Positions 13,318 to 44,693 of a DNA stretch of 64,000 nt are shown in pieces. The position numbers and the translations under genes are program-made. Below the pieces are notes generated by a model, which saw only the letters and a list, made by a program, of their open reading frames with translations, had not been told where the DNA came from and searched no databases. The number at the start of each line of letters is the position of its first letter. The first letter of the stretch is position 1. Source of the DNA: Methanogenium sp. S4BF (GTDB lineage Archaea > Halobacteriota > Methanomicrobia > Methanomicrobiales > Methanomicrobiaceae); contig NZ_CP091277.1 of NCBI RefSeq assembly GCF_029633965.1, positions 2,353,940-2,417,939 on the forward strand, in the 5' to 3' direction.

Positions 13318-14409
13318 TCAGTTTTTCTTTTTATGACACCTGCCGCAGGCGGCGAACAGGGTGGCTGAAAGCAGTGCCAGAATCGCAGGGAAAATGGATG
13401 CGGGTAAATATTCAGGCTCCGGGGGGGGCTGCATCGTAATATCAGGTGCCCGCTTCTCTCCGGGTGCGAGTACGACTGTTCCCTGATAATCCTGATATCC
13501 TGCAGACATCAGTCTCAGTTGGTGTACACCGGGGGTCAGGCCGCTTACCGTGAGTGGTGTGACTCCGTGGCTCACGGAGTCAATGTATACCATCGCTCCT
13601 TCAGGGGTTGATGTAAGTGAAAGGGTTCCTGGCATATTTTCCTGCTCTTCGATTGATATGAGAGGGAATGATACCGGTGTTACCGAGCTGCCTGTAATAG
13701 TGATGGATCTGACGAAACCGATGTAACCATCCTTTTTAATTTCTAGGATGTGTGGACCTGCAGATATGCCCCCCGCCGTCATGGGCGTTGTACCATATCG
13801 CCATCCATCCAGGTAGATCTCTGCACCTGTCGGTGATGAGCTGACAGACAGGGTGCCAAATTCCTTCTTCTTATTGAGGTACGCATATATTTTACAGGTC
13901 TCTTCTGCTGAAACGACAGCGGTTCCTGACCACGTCTTATACCCCGGGCAGTCAAGCCGTACCGAATATGTCCCGGCTGTTAATCCCGTCAGTGTCCGGG
14001 GGGTAAGTCCATATGCCTCACCGTTGACGAAGAGTTCTGCCCGTCCGGGTGATGATGATACGGAGAGGTTGCCGGTTTTTGGTATCAAAGGTGTCATCTC
14101 CAGAAAGACGGACACATGCTGCAGTTCACCGGCTGCCTCCGGAAGAGGTGCTATAGTGGTCCTGTACCCATCCATTACGGCTTTGACCCTGATGTAGGGC
14201 CGGGTCTTGGAAGACACGACGCAAACGGTTAATAATCCTTTTGAGATGTCTCCCATGTATTCATTGTCAAAATAGATGGCGGCCCCGTTCACGTCTGCAT
14301 AGATATCATAGTAGGAAACCACCTCTGCCCGTTCCGCTGTTACCGGGATGACACAGGACAGGCATATCAGGAACGTGAGAAGCAGCAGACCAAAGTGGTG
14401 AGATGGCAT
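13318..14409 (-). CDS. PEGA-repeat surface protein (shorter paralogue)
   Basis: 363 residues: a signal peptide (about 1-25), a degenerate N-terminal unit, three PEGA repeats (starting GNLSVSSSP, GTLSVSSSP and GTLSLTSTP, each with a YGTTP-like turn and a Gly-Tyr near the end), a proline-rich linker and a C-terminal hydrophobic segment followed by CGRCHKKKN. PEGA domains are beta-rich modules of cell-surface proteins. The layout predicts an outward-facing stalk anchored in the membrane. Tandem paralogue of the next gene upstream. Confidence 0.85.
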   Translation of the reverse strand: MPSHHFGLLLLTFLICLSCVIPVTAERAEVVSYYDIYADVNGAAIYFDNEYMGDISKGLLTVCVVSSKTRPYIRVKAVMDGYRTTIAPLPEAAGELQHVSVFLEMTPLIPKTGNLSVSSSPGRAELFVNGEAYGLTPRTLTGLTAGTYSVRLDCPGYKTWSGTAVVSAEETCKIYAYLNKKKEFGTLSVSSSPTGAEIYLDGWRYGTTPMTAGGISAGPHILEIKKDGYIGFVRSITITGSSVTPVSFPLISIEEQENMPGTLSLTSTPEGAMVYIDSVSHGVTPLTVSGLTPGVHQLRLMSAGYQDYQGTVVLAPGEKRAPDITMQPPPEPEYLPASIFPAILALLSATLFAACGRCHKKKN

Positions 14410-14609
14410 GTGTGATCATTCCACGTAATATGGTGGCTGCTATTTATCAGTTTCCCATGCCTGTGTGGTTTGGGGTGTCACTATTGCCGTGAAATGGTGT
14501 GGTGCAGGATATACTGCTCCGATTTCATCCGGAAGCAGGATTTGAAAAATAATCGGCATATCGTTCAGAAAACCGGCATTTTCTGCGAAAAAATATGTGG
14601 TTAATACGG

Positions 14610-15986
14610 TTATTTCCTCCTGCATTTGCAGGAGAGGAGGATGGTGCAGCATATGAGGGAGAGAATGATCATCGGAATGCCTGCCGGGGACTGTTCAGGT
14701 ACAGGTGCAGGGTCAAGGGCGACGTCAAGGCTGCCTGATTCCCCTGCGGCCAGATCAACGGATACCACTTGGTTCCGGTATCCGGAAAGGGTCACTGTTA
14801 CTGCACGAACACCGGGGGTAATATCAGGAACCGTAAGTGGTGTGATACCGGCTAACACATTGTCCATATAGACCATTGCCCCTGCAGGTGCGGATGTGAC
14901 CTTCAGTGATGCAGTGGTGATATCCGGGGTCACCGGTGAAAGCGAAAATGAGATGGGTGTGGCAGCACCGGCATTGACAACGGCAGATGTCACTGCGTCA
15001 CTATAGCCGGTCAGTGTGGCCTGTACTGAATACCTTCCGGGTGAAAGACCGCTTATGATAAGCGGTGTTCCCGGCTTCGTCTCCCCATAGTAGATGCCAT
15101 TCACAGAGATGGATGCGTAGGCAGGGTTTGAGGTCACCTGAATTGAACCGGTGGAAGGAGAGGAGATCTTCAGCAGACTCTTTGATACCGTCGTCACCTG
15201 GTCGGCATAGATACTCACCAGCATCACTGCGTCTTCGTATCCTGCCTTCGTCAGTTCAAGGTCATGCAGACCTGCTGTCAGTCCGCTGATGGTCATCGGG
15301 GTGGTGCCGTAATAGGCGCCATCCAGATAGATGGCGGCACCGGATGGGTTTGAACTGACGGCGAGCGTTCCAAGTTCCTGTTTTCGCACAAGCACTGCGG
15401 AGACTGTGTTTGTCTGGCCCGCAGTGACCCCGGCTGTCTGAGACCATGGTTCATATCCGGAGTGGGTCAGCTGAACAACGTGGTTTCCCGGGGTAAGTCC
15501 GGTGACCAGTTGTGGGGTGGTGCCATAGTAGATATTTTTTATATATACCGCAGCACCGGACGGTGAAGAAGAGATAGAGAGTGATCCGGTCACCGGCTGC
15601 ACCGGTTGTAAGGTCAGATAGACCGAGGTGGTCTCCCCTTCCGGCGGGACCACGGGCAGGGTCTGCTGTGCAGAGTTGTATCCGGCCTTTGCGGCAGAGA
15701 CAACAGCATATGGCGTGGCAGTGGTATGAACCGGGACGGTGAGCACTCCTCCGGCGGTCACTCCCTGATATATCCCGTCAAATGAGACTGCAGCACCGTC
15801 AACACTGGTGTAGATGTCATAATAAGAGATGCCCTCTCCCGGCAAATGGGTGGGTACAGGTTCCGGAAGAATTGTTGCCTCCGGGTCGACCGGAAGCACT
15901 ACTGCGTCATTTGCAAGAACCGAACCTGTCATCCATCCGGTGACACAGATGATACAGAGGAGAAGGAGGATCGAGCGGTGGGTCAT
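14610..15986 (-). CDS. PEGA-repeat surface protein (longer paralogue)
   Basis: 458 residues from the ATG at 15986: a signal peptide, the same N-terminal unit as its neighbour (SYYDIYTSVDGAAVSFDG), four PEGA repeats (GSLSISSSP, GTLAVSSNP, GSIQVTSNP, ASLKVTSAP) and a C-terminal membrane segment ending in basic residues. It differs from the shorter paralogue mainly by one extra repeat. A 200-base gap without a gene separates the two. Adhesion or envelope structure is the general expectation for PEGA proteins; no specific role can be read. Confidence 0.85.
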   Translation of the reverse strand: MTHRSILLLLCIICVTGWMTGSVLANDAVVLPVDPEATILPEPVPTHLPGEGISYYDIYTSVDGAAVSFDGIYQGVTAGGVLTVPVHTTATPYAVVSAAKAGYNSAQQTLPVVPPEGETTSVYLTLQPVQPVTGSLSISSSPSGAAVYIKNIYYGTTPQLVTGLTPGNHVVQLTHSGYEPWSQTAGVTAGQTNTVSAVLVRKQELGTLAVSSNPSGAAIYLDGAYYGTTPMTISGLTAGLHDLELTKAGYEDAVMLVSIYADQVTTVSKSLLKISSPSTGSIQVTSNPAYASISVNGIYYGETKPGTPLIISGLSPGRYSVQATLTGYSDAVTSAVVNAGAATPISFSLSPVTPDITTASLKVTSAPAGAMVYMDNVLAGITPLTVPDITPGVRAVTVTLSGYRNQVVSVDLAAGESGSLDVALDPAPVPEQSPAGIPMIILSLICCTILLSCKCRRK

Positions 15987-16122
15987 GGTTATCATCCGCT
16001 AATACCGCATCGCACTATAAATAAATTTGTTCAGACCGGTGGATCTGGCATGTATATGCTGATGCATCCGGATCTGGCTAAAAATTGAGTATATCAAAAA
16101 AGGTGAAAAAGAAAAAGACTGT

Positions 16123-39452: not shown

Positions 39453-40712
39453 ATGGTCCATATATTTAGTTTCCAGGCATTTCGCCCTCCGGCAGCAGAG
39501 GCACAGCATATCGCCTCCGTCCCATATGATGTGGTATCCACTGAAGAATCACGCGCAGCCCTCGCAGAAAATCCGCAGAGCTTTCTGCAGGTCATCCGTT
39601 CGGAAGCCACCCTTCCCACAGATACAGACCCCGCAGCAGCGGTGGTTTATGAGACTGCTGCGGCAAATCTGCAAAAGCTGATTGACGACGGCCTTCTCCT
39701 GCAGGACGATGAGCCGGGCATCTATCTCTACCGGGTCAAGCAGGGCGGCGCTATCTACACCGGATTTGTGGCAAATGTGAGTGTGGATGATTACCGGAAC
39801 AACAAAATTAAACGCCATGAGCATACCCGCTACGACAAGGAAGAGGACCGGACGCGCCATATTGACACAACCAATATGCACACCGGCCTTGTAGTCCTCC
39901 TCTACCGTGATCCGGGGGAGATCTTCCCCTACATTGCCTCCCTCATCCCGGAAGGTACGCCTGACGGTGTCGCAAAGAGTGCCGGTGCGGTTCATGAGGT
40001 ATTCCGCATTGCTGATGCAGGGGCAATCGCCACCCTGCAGGAGATGTTTGCCGGCGTTGATGCCTTCTATATCGCAGATGGTCATCACCGTGCCAAGTCC
40101 TCGGTCAATGTCGCAGATAAGCGTGGTGAGGAAGGGAGGCTTACGCCCGAATCCGAACGGTTTATGGCGGTAATTTTTGCTGAGAACCGGGTGAAGATCC
40201 ACGGTTACAGCAGACTGGTCGGGGATCTGGGAACCTACACTCCTGAGACGTTCATGGCCGGACTCTCTGAGATATTTACCGTGAAGCCATACGGTGAGAT
40301 TGAGGATACGGTCTTCTGCATCCCGCCGCTTGTCGAGTCTGCAGAACCGGTGCACGTGATGCACATGTACATGGCCGGTGCCTGGTATGAGCTCTCCTGC
40401 CCTGTGGACCCGGCAGCAGACCGGATTGCCTCACTGGATGTTTCTATACTCCAGAAATCGGTCCTTGAGGGGATGCTGGGCATCACAGACCCGCGTGGCG
40501 ACCCGCGTCTGCAGTATCTGGGCGGTGCACGACCGCTGCGTGACCTGCAGGATCGTGTGGATTCGGGTGAGTTTATGCTTGCCTTCTCTATGCAGCCTGT
40601 CCGGGTGGATGACGTGCTGGGTATTGCAGATGACGGCGGTGTGATGCCTCCGAAGTCCACATGGTTTGAACCAAAGCTGCTCAGCGGTCTTGTGCTTCAT
40701 TCACTCAAATAA
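39453..40712 (+). CDS. DUF1015 family protein
   Basis: 419 residues matching the DUF1015 pattern: N-terminal FRPPAAEAQHIASVPYDVVSTEE, central NKIKRHEHTRYDKEEDRTRHI, and FYIADGHHRAKSS with a His pair. The conserved His/Asp/Lys residues suggest an enzyme. The family often sits near serine-pathway genes elsewhere but not here. Reaction not known to me. Confidence 0.85.
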   Translation: MVHIFSFQAFRPPAAEAQHIASVPYDVVSTEESRAALAENPQSFLQVIRSEATLPTDTDPAAAVVYETAAANLQKLIDDGLLLQDDEPGIYLYRVKQGGAIYTGFVANVSVDDYRNNKIKRHEHTRYDKEEDRTRHIDTTNMHTGLVVLLYRDPGEIFPYIASLIPEGTPDGVAKSAGAVHEVFRIADAGAIATLQEMFAGVDAFYIADGHHRAKSSVNVADKRGEEGRLTPESERFMAVIFAENRVKIHGYSRLVGDLGTYTPETFMAGLSEIFTVKPYGEIEDTVFCIPPLVESAEPVHVMHMYMAGAWYELSCPVDPAADRIASLDVSILQKSVLEGMLGITDPRGDPRLQYLGGARPLRDLQDRVDSGEFMLAFSMQPVRVDDVLGIADDGGVMPPKSTWFEPKLLSGLVLHSLK

Positions 40713-40851: not shown

Positions 40852-41421
40852 ATGAGTAAATATGGGGGGGGGCTTCTTCTGCTGTTCGTGGCTGCGGCAT
40901 TCTGCTGTGGCTGTGTGGGAGGAGATTCGATATTTTCAGGGGGGCATTCCCAGACATTTGGGTCGGACATTTCCGATGAGCGAAGCGTGGGGGTGACCCT
41001 CGATGAAGCGCTGGCTGACCTTGGCGCCAGCCAGAATGAAGAGATGATCTCATTTCATAACCAGTCGTTTCTTGCCGTGCGGGGTATACAGATGACGGGG
41101 GACGGGCGTGCCTTGTCATGGGCGCTTTTTGTACGGCCGGAGAATGAGGACCGGACGGTCGTTCTTATTTATACTGACCGGGGCTGGAGCGAGTATGACT
41201 GGTCACGGACTATTCCCTATCTGCCCGTTGACCCGGCTGATATTCTGTCTCCTGATGAACTCCTCCGTCTTCACGAAGATGAACTTTCGGGATATTTCAG
41301 CGCACCGGGCACCGAGGCGGATATATTCCTGAGTAACGGCACCTATGTGGCTACGGTCTATGGTTCGGATCTCTATGAAACATTCCGGTTTGATGCATAT
41401 ACAGGGGAGTGGATGCAATAA
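40852..41421 (+). CDS. Secreted lipoprotein heading the pilin-like operon
   Basis: 189 residues from ATG 40852 (MSKYGGGLLLLFVAAAF). Signal peptide ending in a lipobox-like FCCGC, followed by a soluble domain of about 165 residues (NQSFLAVRGIQMTGDGRALSWALFV ...). No family recognised. Its stop overlaps the GTG start of the next gene by 13 bases, so it is part of the same transcript as the five pilin-like genes. Confidence 0.75.
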   Translation: MSKYGGGLLLLFVAAAFCCGCVGGDSIFSGGHSQTFGSDISDERSVGVTLDEALADLGASQNEEMISFHNQSFLAVRGIQMTGDGRALSWALFVRPENEDRTVVLIYTDRGWSEYDWSRTIPYLPVDPADILSPDELLRLHEDELSGYFSAPGTEADIFLSNGTYVATVYGSDLYETFRFDAYTGEWMQ

Positions 41422-42518
41422 GACACATAACAGATGAGGATGGAATCCTCTCAATCGATTTTCTCGCCGGATTTACCGTATTTATTCTGGCACTTATTAT
41501 GGTCATATCGCTTGTGCCGGGGTTTCTTGCAGGCATTCAGAGTGAGAATATTGACTATGATGCTGTTGCCTACCGCACGTCGGTGATTCTGGTGGAGGAC
41601 CCGGGTGCACCACAGAATCCATCATGGAATCTGATGGGGGCCTATGACATGGAGCATAAAGACGACATCCAGCGTCTGGGCCTTACGGTATCAAAGGATA
41701 CTCCCAATATTCTGTCGCGGGAAAAGGTCGATAAATTCTTTAATCGCACTCCTGATTTCACGTTCACGGCAGAGGATTATCGTGAAAAAGTCATCTTTGG
41801 TGATTTCACGTATCTCTATAATATCTCCCTGAGACTGGAGACCGAAAGTGAGTCATATTATGCCGTTGGCGGGGATGAGGTCCCGACCTTCCAGTATGGG
41901 TATATGAGGCGCCTGGTCAAGGTGAAAGAGCCCTCTGTTGCGGAGATCAACTCGACTCGACTTGGTCCTTATACTGGTGTTATTGATAAAAATATTACAA
42001 GCACCTCCGCAGATTTTGCGGTGCAGATCCCATACGATGTCCTTATTAACCGGTCTGTGAACCCTGCATACCGGATTGATCCGCAGTCAGAACAGCTTAT
42101 GATCAATCTGACAGGTCTGTGGTCTCACCTGAATGGGACAGACATTGAATCGATGAATTTCACCCGCATGGGGCTATACAAGCAGCTTGATGACGGGAGC
42201 ACGATTCTCATTCCGGGTCTTTACCCATGGGCAAATGACACCTACTCGCTGAAAGTCAACGGAACTGCTGTTCCCGCAACCGGCGGTTCGCCAGAGTCTG
42301 TCAGCAACAGCTCAGTGATCACAATGGTGCTCTACCCTCCACTGCCGTTTTCAAATGAGATTACGAGTGTTCTGAATGTGAACTTCAATTTCTCCTATGT
42401 GTATGCAAACAATATCACGGACCACAATTATCTGACTGGTGCATATCAGTATGACTACACTACGAATGTGACACAGCCGGAGCTCGTGGATGCTGTGATG
42501 GAGGTGGCGATATGGTGA
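41409..42518 (+). CDS. Pilin-like membrane protein 1 of 5
   Basis: 369 residues with a GTG start at 41409 inside the lipoprotein gene. The N-terminus is TDEDGILSIDFLAGFTVFILALIMVISLVPGF: an acidic patch and Gly immediately before a hydrophobic helix, as in archaeal class III (pilin-type) signal peptides or minor pilins. The rest is a long extracytoplasmic domain with many Asn-x-Ser/Thr sites, suggesting a glycosylated surface protein. Family not recognised. Confidence 0.7.
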   Translation: MDAIRHITDEDGILSIDFLAGFTVFILALIMVISLVPGFLAGIQSENIDYDAVAYRTSVILVEDPGAPQNPSWNLMGAYDMEHKDDIQRLGLTVSKDTPNILSREKVDKFFNRTPDFTFTAEDYREKVIFGDFTYLYNISLRLETESESYYAVGGDEVPTFQYGYMRRLVKVKEPSVAEINSTRLGPYTGVIDKNITSTSADFAVQIPYDVLINRSVNPAYRIDPQSEQLMINLTGLWSHLNGTDIESMNFTRMGLYKQLDDGSTILIPGLYPWANDTYSLKVNGTAVPATGGSPESVSNSSVITMVLYPPLPFSNEITSVLNVNFNFSYVYANNITDHNYLTGAYQYDYTTNVTQPELVDAVMEVAIW

Positions 42519-43036
42519 TGAATGACGAAGGGCAGCTCTACACGATTGAGGGCATCACCGCAGGGGTAATCATGCTCGTGACGGCGTTTACGATTTTTAA
42601 TACCGGCATTGTGTATACCCCGGGGGATGCCCATATAACGGATATGCAGATCCAGCAGCTGGGGTATGACGCCCTGCTGATGATGGATACGCCAGCAGAT
42701 TCATCTCCGCTTTACGAAAGTCCGCTTGCGAAGATGATTCAGGGTGATCATGGGGACCAATTCAAGTATGAATTTAATGATTATTTGAATAAGCATACCG
42801 GGACTACTGAGATTGTGGATAGCCTTGAATACAATGCAACGGTTTTCAACAGGGATGGAGATACTATCCATTCATATCAGTTCAGTAATTCTACGATGTA
42901 TGAAACAAGCCAGCTGACACGTGAACCTGCGATCAGTGTGACACGGTATGTCTGGCTGTCAGACAGGCCGTTTGTATCTGGTTATGACACCGGCAAACAA
43001 CTGGTCCTCCTGGAGGTGCTCATATGGAGGCGCTGA
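42512..43036 (+). CDS. Pilin-like membrane protein 2 of 5
   Basis: 174 residues. The N-terminus MVMNDEGQLYTIEGITAGVIMLVTAFTIFNTG again has the acidic-acidic-Gly patch directly ahead of a hydrophobic helix. The start at 42512 overlaps the previous stop by 7 bases; ATG 42518 is the alternative. Extracytoplasmic domain of about 130 residues. Same operon. Confidence 0.68.
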   Translation: MVMNDEGQLYTIEGITAGVIMLVTAFTIFNTGIVYTPGDAHITDMQIQQLGYDALLMMDTPADSSPLYESPLAKMIQGDHGDQFKYEFNDYLNKHTGTTEIVDSLEYNATVFNRDGDTIHSYQFSNSTMYETSQLTREPAISVTRYVWLSDRPFVSGYDTGKQLVLLEVLIWRR

Positions 43037-43437
43037 ACGACGATGGACAATGGATTGTGATGATGGGTTTTCTCGTTGCAATCGGCATGTTTATGCTGGC
43101 GGTCGTGGTCAGCCAGGCGCCGCTTGTGGGCCAGACGACCGCTGAATCGGTGATGGAGTTCCCGAAAAATGAGGTGCAGGACCTCAGGGGAAAATTGGTC
43201 TCGATGGGGAGCAACTCGCCAACGAGCACTCTTCAGGAACGTTTCAGGGAAGATATGGCCCTCCTTTCTATGTCTCGCAACAACGCAATTGCAACATACT
43301 CGATTGATGGAGGGAACATGACTGCCGCTGGCACATATGAGGATATTTTCTATACCTATCATGAAATTGACATCCATTACAACAATGGCGTCACCGAATA
43401 CGATGAGGCTCTGCTGCTGCCTGAGAGGAGGCCCTGA
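43024..43437 (+). CDS. Pilin-like membrane protein 3 of 5
   Basis: 137 residues. N-terminus MEALNDDGQWIVMMGFLVAIGMFMLAVVVSQAP: Asp-Asp-Gly followed by one transmembrane helix. Overlaps the previous gene by 13 bases. The remaining 100 residues are predicted outside; no family recognised. Confidence 0.68.
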   Translation: MEALNDDGQWIVMMGFLVAIGMFMLAVVVSQAPLVGQTTAESVMEFPKNEVQDLRGKLVSMGSNSPTSTLQERFREDMALLSMSRNNAIATYSIDGGNMTAAGTYEDIFYTYHEIDIHYNNGVTEYDEALLLPERRP

Positions 43438-43439
43438 AT

Positions 43440-43883
43440 ATGAAAAAGATGTTCCGAAATCTGGATGATGACGGCGTCTCATCGATGACAGAATATCTCA
43501 CGATCACGTCTGTTCTGGTCTGCATGTTTGTCATCATGATGTTTGTTGTGAATGCCGGTCTGATTGAAGGTCCGGCCGATACCCTCAAATATCACTCCTA
43601 TGTGGATATCGGAAACGGTGTGAGTGTGCGGATGGTTGACCTTTACACCATTTCACCGGGGGACGGGACCATCCGGACGCAGTTTGACCTTCCTGATACC
43701 GTGGCGGGAGAGGAGTATGAAGTGAGACTGGGTGGTTTTGAGGAGAGCCAGTACATTACGGTTACCGATGGGTCTGTTTTTGCAGAGGTGGCAATCTCCG
43801 GCATTGGTGCCAGCAGGGGGGTAACCGGGAATACCACCGGTGGCGGGTATAATTTGATCTCCTATAACTCTTCAGGGGTGTGA
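43440..43883 (+). CDS. Pilin-like membrane protein 4 of 5
   Basis: 147 residues. N-terminus MKKMFRNLDDDGVSSMTEYLTITSVLVCMFVIMMFVVNAG: three Asp and Gly before Ser-Ser-x-Thr-Glu and the helix, with Glu at the position that is conserved in type IV pilins. AGGAGG lies about 10 bases before the start. The extracellular part is beta-rich and short. Confidence 0.72.
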   Translation: MKKMFRNLDDDGVSSMTEYLTITSVLVCMFVIMMFVVNAGLIEGPADTLKYHSYVDIGNGVSVRMVDLYTISPGDGTIRTQFDLPDTVAGEEYEVRLGGFEESQYITVTDGSVFAEVAISGIGASRGVTGNTTGGGYNLISYNSSGV

Positions 43884-43889
43884 GTTTCG

Positions 43890-44693
43890 ATGAAAACAGA
43901 TATACGAAAAGATGAATCAGGGGTTTCAGAAGCGATCGGGTTTATTCTGGTATTTACGATTGTCATTCTGGGAATTTCAATTGTGACACTCTATGGATAC
44001 CCCGTGCTTGCAGATGCGCGAATCAGTTCAGATGAGAAGATTATGGAGCAGAATATGATTGTCCTCCAAAATGACATCAAGATTCTGACCAGAAACAATG
44101 TGCCGTACCGTGATACGACCATCGGGGTGTCGGGTGGCAGCCTGTTTGTGACCAATTCAACGGAGGCAGAGAATGCGGGCGGTGAATATTTCACGCTGAC
44201 GTATGATGTGGCTAGTGTGACTGTCTTTTCAGATGTGTACTATCCAGGATCGCTGGAATTCGTCTCCGATGAAGGGACGGCGGTGATCTCGGTAGCCAAT
44301 GGCGCAGTGGTCAAACGTCAGCTGGATCAGGATGGTTCGAGCATGGTCTCTGATCCCCGCTGGTTTTATGATGAGAGGGAGGGGACCCTTGTCATCTTTA
44401 TGACAAACCTGACCTCACCACGGCCGATGACCCTCGGTGGCATCGGGACTATACAGATGGCGATGCTTAAACCCCCTGCGGTCCACGACTTTGGTGACTC
44501 CGGAACCGTGGAGATAGAATATTTCCACGACTCGACTGATGATTTTTCACGAGCATGGGAGAACTATTTGACCGGTCCTTATATCGTGCAAAGTGGTTTC
44601 TTGAAGGTAGTCTCAGGAAATCCAGATGTCTACCAGCTGAATGTCGACCGCCTGGTCATAAAAGAGTATACAGTTGAGATCCTGGGAATATAA
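43890..44693 (+). CDS. Pilin-like membrane protein 5 of 5 (archaeal pilin N-terminus)
   Basis: 267 residues. N-terminus MKTDIRKDESGVSEAIGFILVFTIVILGISIVTLYG: the KDESGVSEAIG motif is the clearest archaeal type IV pilin cleavage site in the set, with cleavage expected just before or after the Gly. The large C-terminal domain is predicted outside the cell. Last gene of the operon; no prepilin peptidase, assembly ATPase or platform protein is encoded nearby. Confidence 0.8.
   Translation: MKTDIRKDESGVSEAIGFILVFTIVILGISIVTLYGYPVLADARISSDEKIMEQNMIVLQNDIKILTRNNVPYRDTTIGVSGGSLFVTNSTEAENAGGEYFTLTYDVASVTVFSDVYYPGSLEFVSDEGTAVISVANGAVVKRQLDQDGSSMVSDPRWFYDEREGTLVIFMTNLTSPRPMTLGGIGTIQMAMLKPPAVHDFGDSGTVEIEYFHDSTDDFSRAWENYLTGPYIVQSGFLKVVSGNPDVYQLNVDRLVIKEYTVEILGI

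Follow-up and report, generated by a model that had tools for sequence, protein, structure and literature searches.

RESULTS

A lipoprotein gene and five prepilin-type genes form one operon

The genome of Methanogenium sp. S4BF, a member of the Methanomicrobiales, is a single contig (C1) of 2.51 Mb, and the stretch analyzed here (the window) covers 64,000 nucleotides of it (NZ_CP091277.1, positions 2,353,940 to 2,417,939). Six adjacent open reading frames (ORFs) lie on the plus strand of the window at 40852-44693, a lipoprotein gene followed by five prepilin-type genes, called g1 to g5 in what follows. We consider it likely that they are the operon for the accessory (core minor) pilins of a type IV pilus that is PilB4-like and belongs to euryarchaeal clade 2.

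First in the operon is the lipoprotein gene (40852..41421, 189 amino acids [aa]), with a lipobox-like ...AFCCGC near the N terminus of its product. Three of the prepilin genes match Pfam families above the cut-off: g1 (41409..42518, 369 aa) matches DUF7287 (PF23958, E 2.1e-9), g2 (42512..43036, 174 aa) matches DUF7288 (PF23959, E 1.3e-8), and g5 (43890..44693, 267 aa), which has a PilA-like N terminus, matches DUF7289 (PF23960, E 1.3e-17). The nearest named relatives of g5 are from Methanogenium species, at 74-82% identity. The product of g4 (43440..43883, 147 aa) is DUF7266-like, its match to PF23928 (E 5e-5, 23.5 bits) falling under the cut-off of 27.6. That of g3 (43024..43437, 137 aa) is a distant DUF7261-like prepilin.

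The genes are tightly packed. The lipoprotein gene overlaps g1 by 13 bases, g1 overlaps g2 by 7, and g2 overlaps g3 by 13; only 2 bases separate g3 from g4, and 6 separate g4 from g5. Shine-Dalgarno-like sequences, read directly from the DNA, precede the starts of g2, g3, and g4 by 5-8 bases: GGAGGTG inside the end of g1 (42500..42506), GGAGGTG inside the end of g2 (43012..43018), and GAGGAGG at the end of g3 (43425..43431). The placing of these sites within or at the end of the preceding gene suggests translational coupling, as does the conserved and partly overlapping order of g1 to g5.

The five proteins carry the ordinary class III signal of the organism

An earlier note on this DNA, made from the sequence alone, had described a lipoprotein and five proteins with DEDG, NDEG, NDDG, DDDG, or DESG before a single helix, and these motifs are present to the letter. 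In context, with a slash at the predicted cleavage point, they read HITDEDG/ILSIDF in g1, MVMNDEG/QLYTIEG in g2, EALNDDG/QWIVMMG in g3, RNLDDDG/VSSMTEY in g4, and IRKDESG/VSEAIGF in g5. In every case, what follows is the protein's sole strongly hydrophobic stretch. All five thus have the makeup of class III prepilins, a short charged N terminus with Gly, Ala, or Ser at -1 and then a hydrophobic helix.

A motif-plus-helix test of 144 ORF-translated proteins, encoded in the window and in five further regions picked for their pilus genes, gave 12 positives, a proportion that is no genome-wide rate. Ten of the 12 are of pilin or archaellin type, namely, four operon proteins, two archaellins (PF01917 confirms one, and the other is encoded in the archaellum locus L016), one PilA-type pilin encoded at 833 kb, and three other pilins encoded at 950 kb. 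Masked by an antisense ORF, g3 was missing from the list of 144, yet it passes the same test. The acidic-Gly patch is more than chance. Since it also stands on archaellins and PilA-type pilins of the genome, it is the organism's standard class III (prepilin) signal and is not peculiar to this operon.

By this test, all five proteins are predicted to be prepilin-like. The PF04021 class III signal model found no match in the whole genome. Among the controls, that model was positive only in Methanocaldococcus, and it therefore covers the signal of another lineage. A search of NCBIfam gave only noise below threshold.

The signal is well kept among relatives. The pattern at -3/-2/-1 and a gene-specific mature N terminus were found in 44-76 scored relatives per gene, and residue -1 was Gly, Ala, or (once) Ser in all of them. 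The conserved mature starts are xLSIDF(L)xG for g1, QLYTIEG for g2, QWIVLMG for g3, V(S/A/T)xLxEY for g4, and VSEAIGF for g5. An acidic residue lies near the mature start in four of these proteins: Asp5 in g1, Glu6 in g2 and g4, and Glu3 in g5. The Asp of g1 was found in 44 of 44 scored relatives, with a search pattern that demanded D or E at that position. Of the five, g3 alone has no acid in mature positions 1-10.

These patterns bear on whether the five are pilins at all. Prepilin cleavage is a prediction, a lipoprotein is encoded with the set, and we found no report of a filament of g1-to-g5-type proteins in the literature searched; one can therefore envision ordinary helix-anchored surface proteins, left uncleaved, in a membrane complex with the lipoprotein. 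We regard this as highly improbable, given that Gly or Ala at -1 is conserved together with the gene-specific mature signatures, that the same signal stands on the archaellins and PilA of the genome, and that PilB and PilC genes adjoin the set in other lineages.

Features of the individual proteins

A lipobox cysteine is present in the lipoprotein of the window and in 48 of 63 relatives; the other 15 apparently have a plain helix anchor, a start called too early, or a missing N terminus. No convincing Pfam family was found in any of 30 members. A protein of locus L107, the only distant match, was considered as a homologue and rejected, as the match spans the signal-peptide region alone. We therefore treat the lipoprotein gene as specific to the Methanomicrobiales, the only order in which homologues were found.

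The AlphaFold2 model of g1 (predicted local distance difference test [pLDDT] score, 86.2) has a helix at residues 16-44 and a beta-rich head, in which the DUF7287 region is followed, from about residue 175, by a second beta domain. The protein holds 14 N-glycosylation sequons (NxS/T), compared with 3.5 expected from shuffles, a richness that would suit a domain exposed at the surface. In other lineages, many homologues measure just 155-240 aa, so the C-terminal beta domain is probably an addition made in the Methanomicrobiales; a long form of 357 aa at locus L111, in another lineage, is an exception to its order specificity.

At their C termini, g1 and g2 share a conserved aromatic motif (MEVAIW in g1, LEVLIWRR in g2). 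Most of the distant homologues likewise close with VxVW or LxxWR (Val-x-Val-Trp or Leu-x-x-Trp), for which reason we rejected the possibility that the Glu-Val...Trp ending is a mere by-product of the embedded ribosome-binding site and take it to be a feature of the protein.

The window protein of g3 matches no Pfam family. However, 9 of 31 members of its family match DUF7261 (PF23922) weakly (best E, 0.0026), and its positional counterparts in other lineages do so at E 1e-5 to 4e-3, all below the cut-off. A g3 profile matched one such counterpart at 94% probability over the N-terminal 46 residues only. It is best called DUF7261-like, a distant relative by these profile matches. For g4, the homologue that takes its place in a locus of probable haloarchaeal origin matched PF23928 above the cut-off (E 1.1e-16). 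Iterated g4 profiles draw in g5 homologues, which hints that the DUF7266 and DUF7289 families are related.

The g5 model (AlphaFold2 with a 60-row alignment; mean pLDDT, 92.2) has a helix of 59 residues (10-68) followed by a beta-rich head of about 14 strands, and it shows the general plan of type IV pilins, a helix with a beta head.

The set is conserved in the Methanomicrobiales and separate from PilB and PilC

The note had proposed to test conservation and gene order in other methanogens. We sampled 20 loci across six families of the order, and each of the 20 has all five pilin genes, arranged as in the window. The lipoprotein gene precedes g1 in nearly all of the 20; in the most diverged, it lies farther off or its ORF call is doubtful. 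A scan of 80 loci from named genomes gave this order of the pilin genes throughout, except where a gene was lacking because the contig was short or no ORF had been called. Even the overlaps are kept, that of 7 bases between g1 and g2 in 62 of 71 scored loci and that of 13 bases between g2 and g3 in 52 of about 73. Of 60 genomes searched, g2 was found in 56, g4 in 55, and a g5 family match in 57.

The note had also stated that no assembly ATPase, platform protein, or peptidase lies nearby, and there is indeed no match to T2SSE, T2SSF, or the A24 peptidase family within the window. Nor was PilB or PilC found within the fetched flanks of the 80 loci. Adjacency of the set and PilB is absent in this genome and in every sampled locus of the order. 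In the Methanomicrobiales, the pilin set is split from its probable motor.

The same set adjoins PilB and PilC in other Halobacteriota

We sampled 197 genomes of the phylum and detected DUF7287 in 130, and Haloferax volcanii, used as a control, was positive for both DUF7287 and DUF7289. Twenty loci outside the order were drawn from the DUF7287-positive genomes. Most run g1-g2-g3-g4-g5, and in many of the loci a long DUF7289-like gene is added; three (L112, L115, and L116) have a changed order; at such distances, iterated profiles merge g4 and g5, so that the labels of these two are no separate evidence. At L102 and L107, the entire g1-to-g5 set is tandemly duplicated, each copy then followed by a long DUF7289-like gene (about 480-510 aa).

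In 9 of the 20 loci (L097-L101, L103, L112, L115, and L116), PilB adjoins the set, as does PilC where the call is clear. At L099, the row by Pfam is T2SSE, T2SSF, DUF7287, DUF7288, DUF7261 (weak), DUF7266, and DUF7289. The loci L097-L101 and L103, with 65-68% G+C and genomes of 3-4 Mb, are probably haloarchaeal; their PilB proteins are 972-1377 aa long. The families of the window and their order (DUF7287, 7288, 7261, 7266, and 7289) match the set that stands beside PilB and PilC in these probable haloarchaea, g3 being only a distant match and g4 one below the cut-off.

Candidate motors, peptidase, and major pilin

The genome encodes three convincing PilB-type ATPases, ArlI, TadA_A, and TadA_B; a fourth match, at C1:248 kb, is weak. 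ArlI (C1:712 kb) is the ATPase of the archaellum operon at C1:706-718 kb. TadA_A (C1:238-241 kb) stands with two PilC genes in a locus at C1:236-241 kb that has no adjoining pilin. This is the orphan TadA/TadC-like pair that the note had proposed to look for, and it lies about 350 kb from the pilin set around the chromosome, if that is circular. The sole A24 prepilin peptidase gene of the genome (C1:246 kb) is 5.1 kb from TadA_A, and a stand-alone PilA-type gene is found at C1:833 kb. TadA_B (649 aa), at C1:1766 kb with a fused PilC (645 aa), adjoins an archaellin-type gene (PF01917).

TadA_A, with its two PilC genes, is a PilB of the clade-2 type; its PilB3_C domain scores above the cut-off and PilB3_N below it. 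TadA_A (L012:10064-14521) has a long, variable N-terminal extension; the protein is 1051 aa here and ranges from about 680 to >1100 aa in relatives. Two small genes precede it, one with a Roadblock/LC7 domain (PF03259). The TadA_B locus (L013:7086-12530, C1:1765-1770 kb) also holds a divergent KaiC-like ATPase and seems to be a small archaellum-like or pilus locus in addition to the full archaellum operon. A maximum-likelihood tree places TadA_A in a supported clade (99/96) together with the L115 ATPase, which adjoins a pilin set.

Co-occurrence links the set to TadA_A. Ten genomes of the order (G009, G012, G017, G033, G040, G043, G045, G048, G050, and G055) contain the set, and the only ATPases detected in them are TadA_A and a single archaellum-scoring one, these classes being assigned in G012 by the tree and in the rest by score pattern. 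Conversely, a genus designated g21 (G047 and G052, at least 98% complete) is without TadA_A, g1, g2, and g4 and has kept its other PilB paralogues. G047 and G052 also have 20-27 PilA-type (PF07790) matches each, many of them clustered, a large pilin expansion.

A PilA-type pilin gene is present in nine of the ten genomes in which TadA_A is the only pilus ATPase, and this matters for a second view of the operon, in which the five pilins form the body of a separate filament or a short pseudopilus-like piston, with one of them, perhaps g4 or g5, as the major subunit. Makarova et al. do predict a separate major pilin (arCOG03926) for the PilB4-type system and suggest that any of its pilins may be part of the filament (PMC4858521), and the conserved gene order would suit such a structure. 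PilA in those nine genomes would then lack a motor apart from the archaellum ATPase, however; nearly every genome has just one copy each of g2 and g4, and duplication is common among major pilins; and the heads of g1 and g5 are large. On balance, we think a separate filament rather unlikely.

Neighboring genes

Directly upstream of the operon, at 39453-40712, is a DUF1015 gene (PF06245, E 3e-88), found in the same place in 58 of 80 loci of the order; it looks unrelated to pili. Elsewhere in the window, at 13318-15995 on the minus strand, two adjacent genes encode secreted proteins with tandem repeats (SSPSGAxIYLDGxYYGTTPxTISGLTxGxHxLxLxKxGY) and a C-terminal membrane helix; they resemble PEGA-domain surface proteins.

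DISCUSSION

Our preferred reading is that of an accessory pilin operon serving a clade-2, PilB4-like pilus whose machinery is encoded at a distance. We imagine that the single A24 peptidase would cut each prepilin after Gly or Ala and that the PilB/PilC/PilC locus at C1:236-241 kb would assemble the five proteins with the stand-alone PilA (C1:833 kb) as major pilin. The five together may prime or cap the filament, a role suggested by analogy with the minor-pilin complexes of bacteria. The beta domain of g1, probably glycosylated, could then be displayed outside as an adhesive or binding module; as a guess, the lipoprotein might sit on the outer face of the membrane and serve in assembly or as an anchor. 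The earlier note's idea of pilin-type proteins that borrow a distant machine is supported by the pilin-less PilB/PilC/PilC locus, the single peptidase, the homologous sets adjacent to PilB and PilC elsewhere, and the co-occurrence of set and PilB.

Several points weigh against this reading. Expression, cleavage, and assembly of the five proteins are predictions. Comparison of the models with the PDB gave no trustworthy match: the best for g1 (Z 5.4, for the C-terminal domain) came amid many unrelated beta-sandwich folds, and for g5 the best Foldseek E was 2.8e-3, with TM scores of 0.13-0.20. (A g5 profile likewise found nothing meaningful among PDB sequences.) The co-absence of TadA_A and the set in g21 may be one event, and one draft genome (G031, 99% complete) has TadA_A and no set. 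Finally, the ATPases adjacent to the set are spread over three separate clades of the tree. Motors and sets have therefore been re-paired, and the pairing with TadA_A is one that we infer. Re-pairing of motors and pilin sets in evolution was also described by Makarova et al. (PMC4858521). A simple argument from an orthologous motor was dropped, as set-adjacent ATPases are not one clade; co-occurrence appears to be the better argument for the pairing.

The spread of set-adjacent ATPases over several clades also leaves room for a different motor, TadA_B (C1:1766 kb) or ArlI. PilB and PilC can serve different pilin sets, as shown by the rescue of PilB1-C1 loss by PilB3-C3 in H. volcanii (PMC6491452). 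Nevertheless, ten set-bearing genomes have no TadA_B-scoring ATPase, TadA_B already has an archaellin-type gene of its own beside it, and in g21 the set is absent along with TadA_A while other PilB paralogues are present. Service by either of these motors in place of TadA_A seems to us improbable.

A more specific form of our preferred reading can be envisioned, in which the five pilins, each with a mature N-terminal signature that is maintained throughout a phylum, are a fixed priming and tip complex. It would be what PilHIJK is in bacteria, capped by g3 as the subunit without Glu5, and in the Methanomicrobiales, a glycosylated g1 beta domain and a dedicated lipoprotein partner would be added. 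In bacterial minor pilins, the tip complex is capped by a subunit without Glu5 (review, PMC10191384). Archaeal PilA is also without Glu5, so that g3 as a candidate cap is a lead only, and we put the full proposal forward tentatively, as possible but doubtful.

Five families of unknown function become candidate components of one pilus, and for a methanogen, we can name a probable motor along with probable platform proteins, a peptidase, and a major pilin. Natural tests are at hand in the genomes with a single pilus ATPase and in the genus that has neither motor nor set; a possible archaeal tip complex would be testable in haloarchaea, where genetics exist. In the Methanomicrobiales, pili may be important when cells attach or make contact with partners. 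DUF7266, DUF7287, DUF7288, and DUF7289 are named nowhere in the literature searched, and no functional study of this pilin set was found there.

Among bacterial systems, PilHIJK of type IVa pili, PulHIJK of type II secretion, and the modular pilins of Streptococcus sanguinis likewise have four or five pilins per operon, with one subunit lacking an acid near position 5 (as in g3) and a pilin with an added domain (as in g1). The likeness is one of organization, with no sequence relation shown; moreover, Glu5 is absent from g5 and from archaeal PilA as well, and its lack has no diagnostic value here. The PilA adhesion pili of H. volcanii, assembled by PilB3-PilC3, share a pilin-less PilB/PilC locus and stand-alone PilA genes (PMC4858521, PMC6491452). 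There, PilB3 has been shown to be necessary for PilA pili, whereas the window system is known from genes alone and has its accessory set in a separate operon.

The closest likeness is to the PilB4-type pilus. Makarova, Koonin, and Albers (2016) described a PilB4-type clade-2 system with a pilin set of its own, motors that work on pilins in trans, and stand-alone PilA genes (PMC4858521). In H. volcanii, the PilB4 ATPase HVO_1160 carries additional domains (PMC4858521) and was detected in minimal medium (PMC7305310), and a proposal exists that pilB4-C4 builds a structure resembling a pilus, together with two large pilins that are co-regulated (PMC4371748). The window arrangement appears to fit this euryarchaeal pilin set (PMC4858521), by arrangement and not by arCOG number. 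Both have a dedicated set of several pilins linked to PilB and PilC, and the probable haloarchaeal sets follow a PilB with a long N terminus and a PilC, in line with the extended HVO_1160. DUF7289, being duplicated, beta-rich, and about 250-550 aa long, resembles arCOG02911 as described and is a candidate member of it. What differs is that the window set stands apart from PilB and PilC (adjacency is typical of the haloarchaeal loci but no necessity, given motors that act in trans), that g1 has an extra beta domain, and that a lipoprotein gene has been added. The earlier note had seen here a candidate for an undescribed cell-surface system; its families are in Pfam, and its arrangement fits the set described in 2016, so that an undescribed system is not supported. 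We class the operon as a split-off accessory pilin operon of the recognized PilB4-type system, and the lipoprotein and the sequon-rich beta domain of g1 are, from their distribution, its apparent lineage-specific additions.

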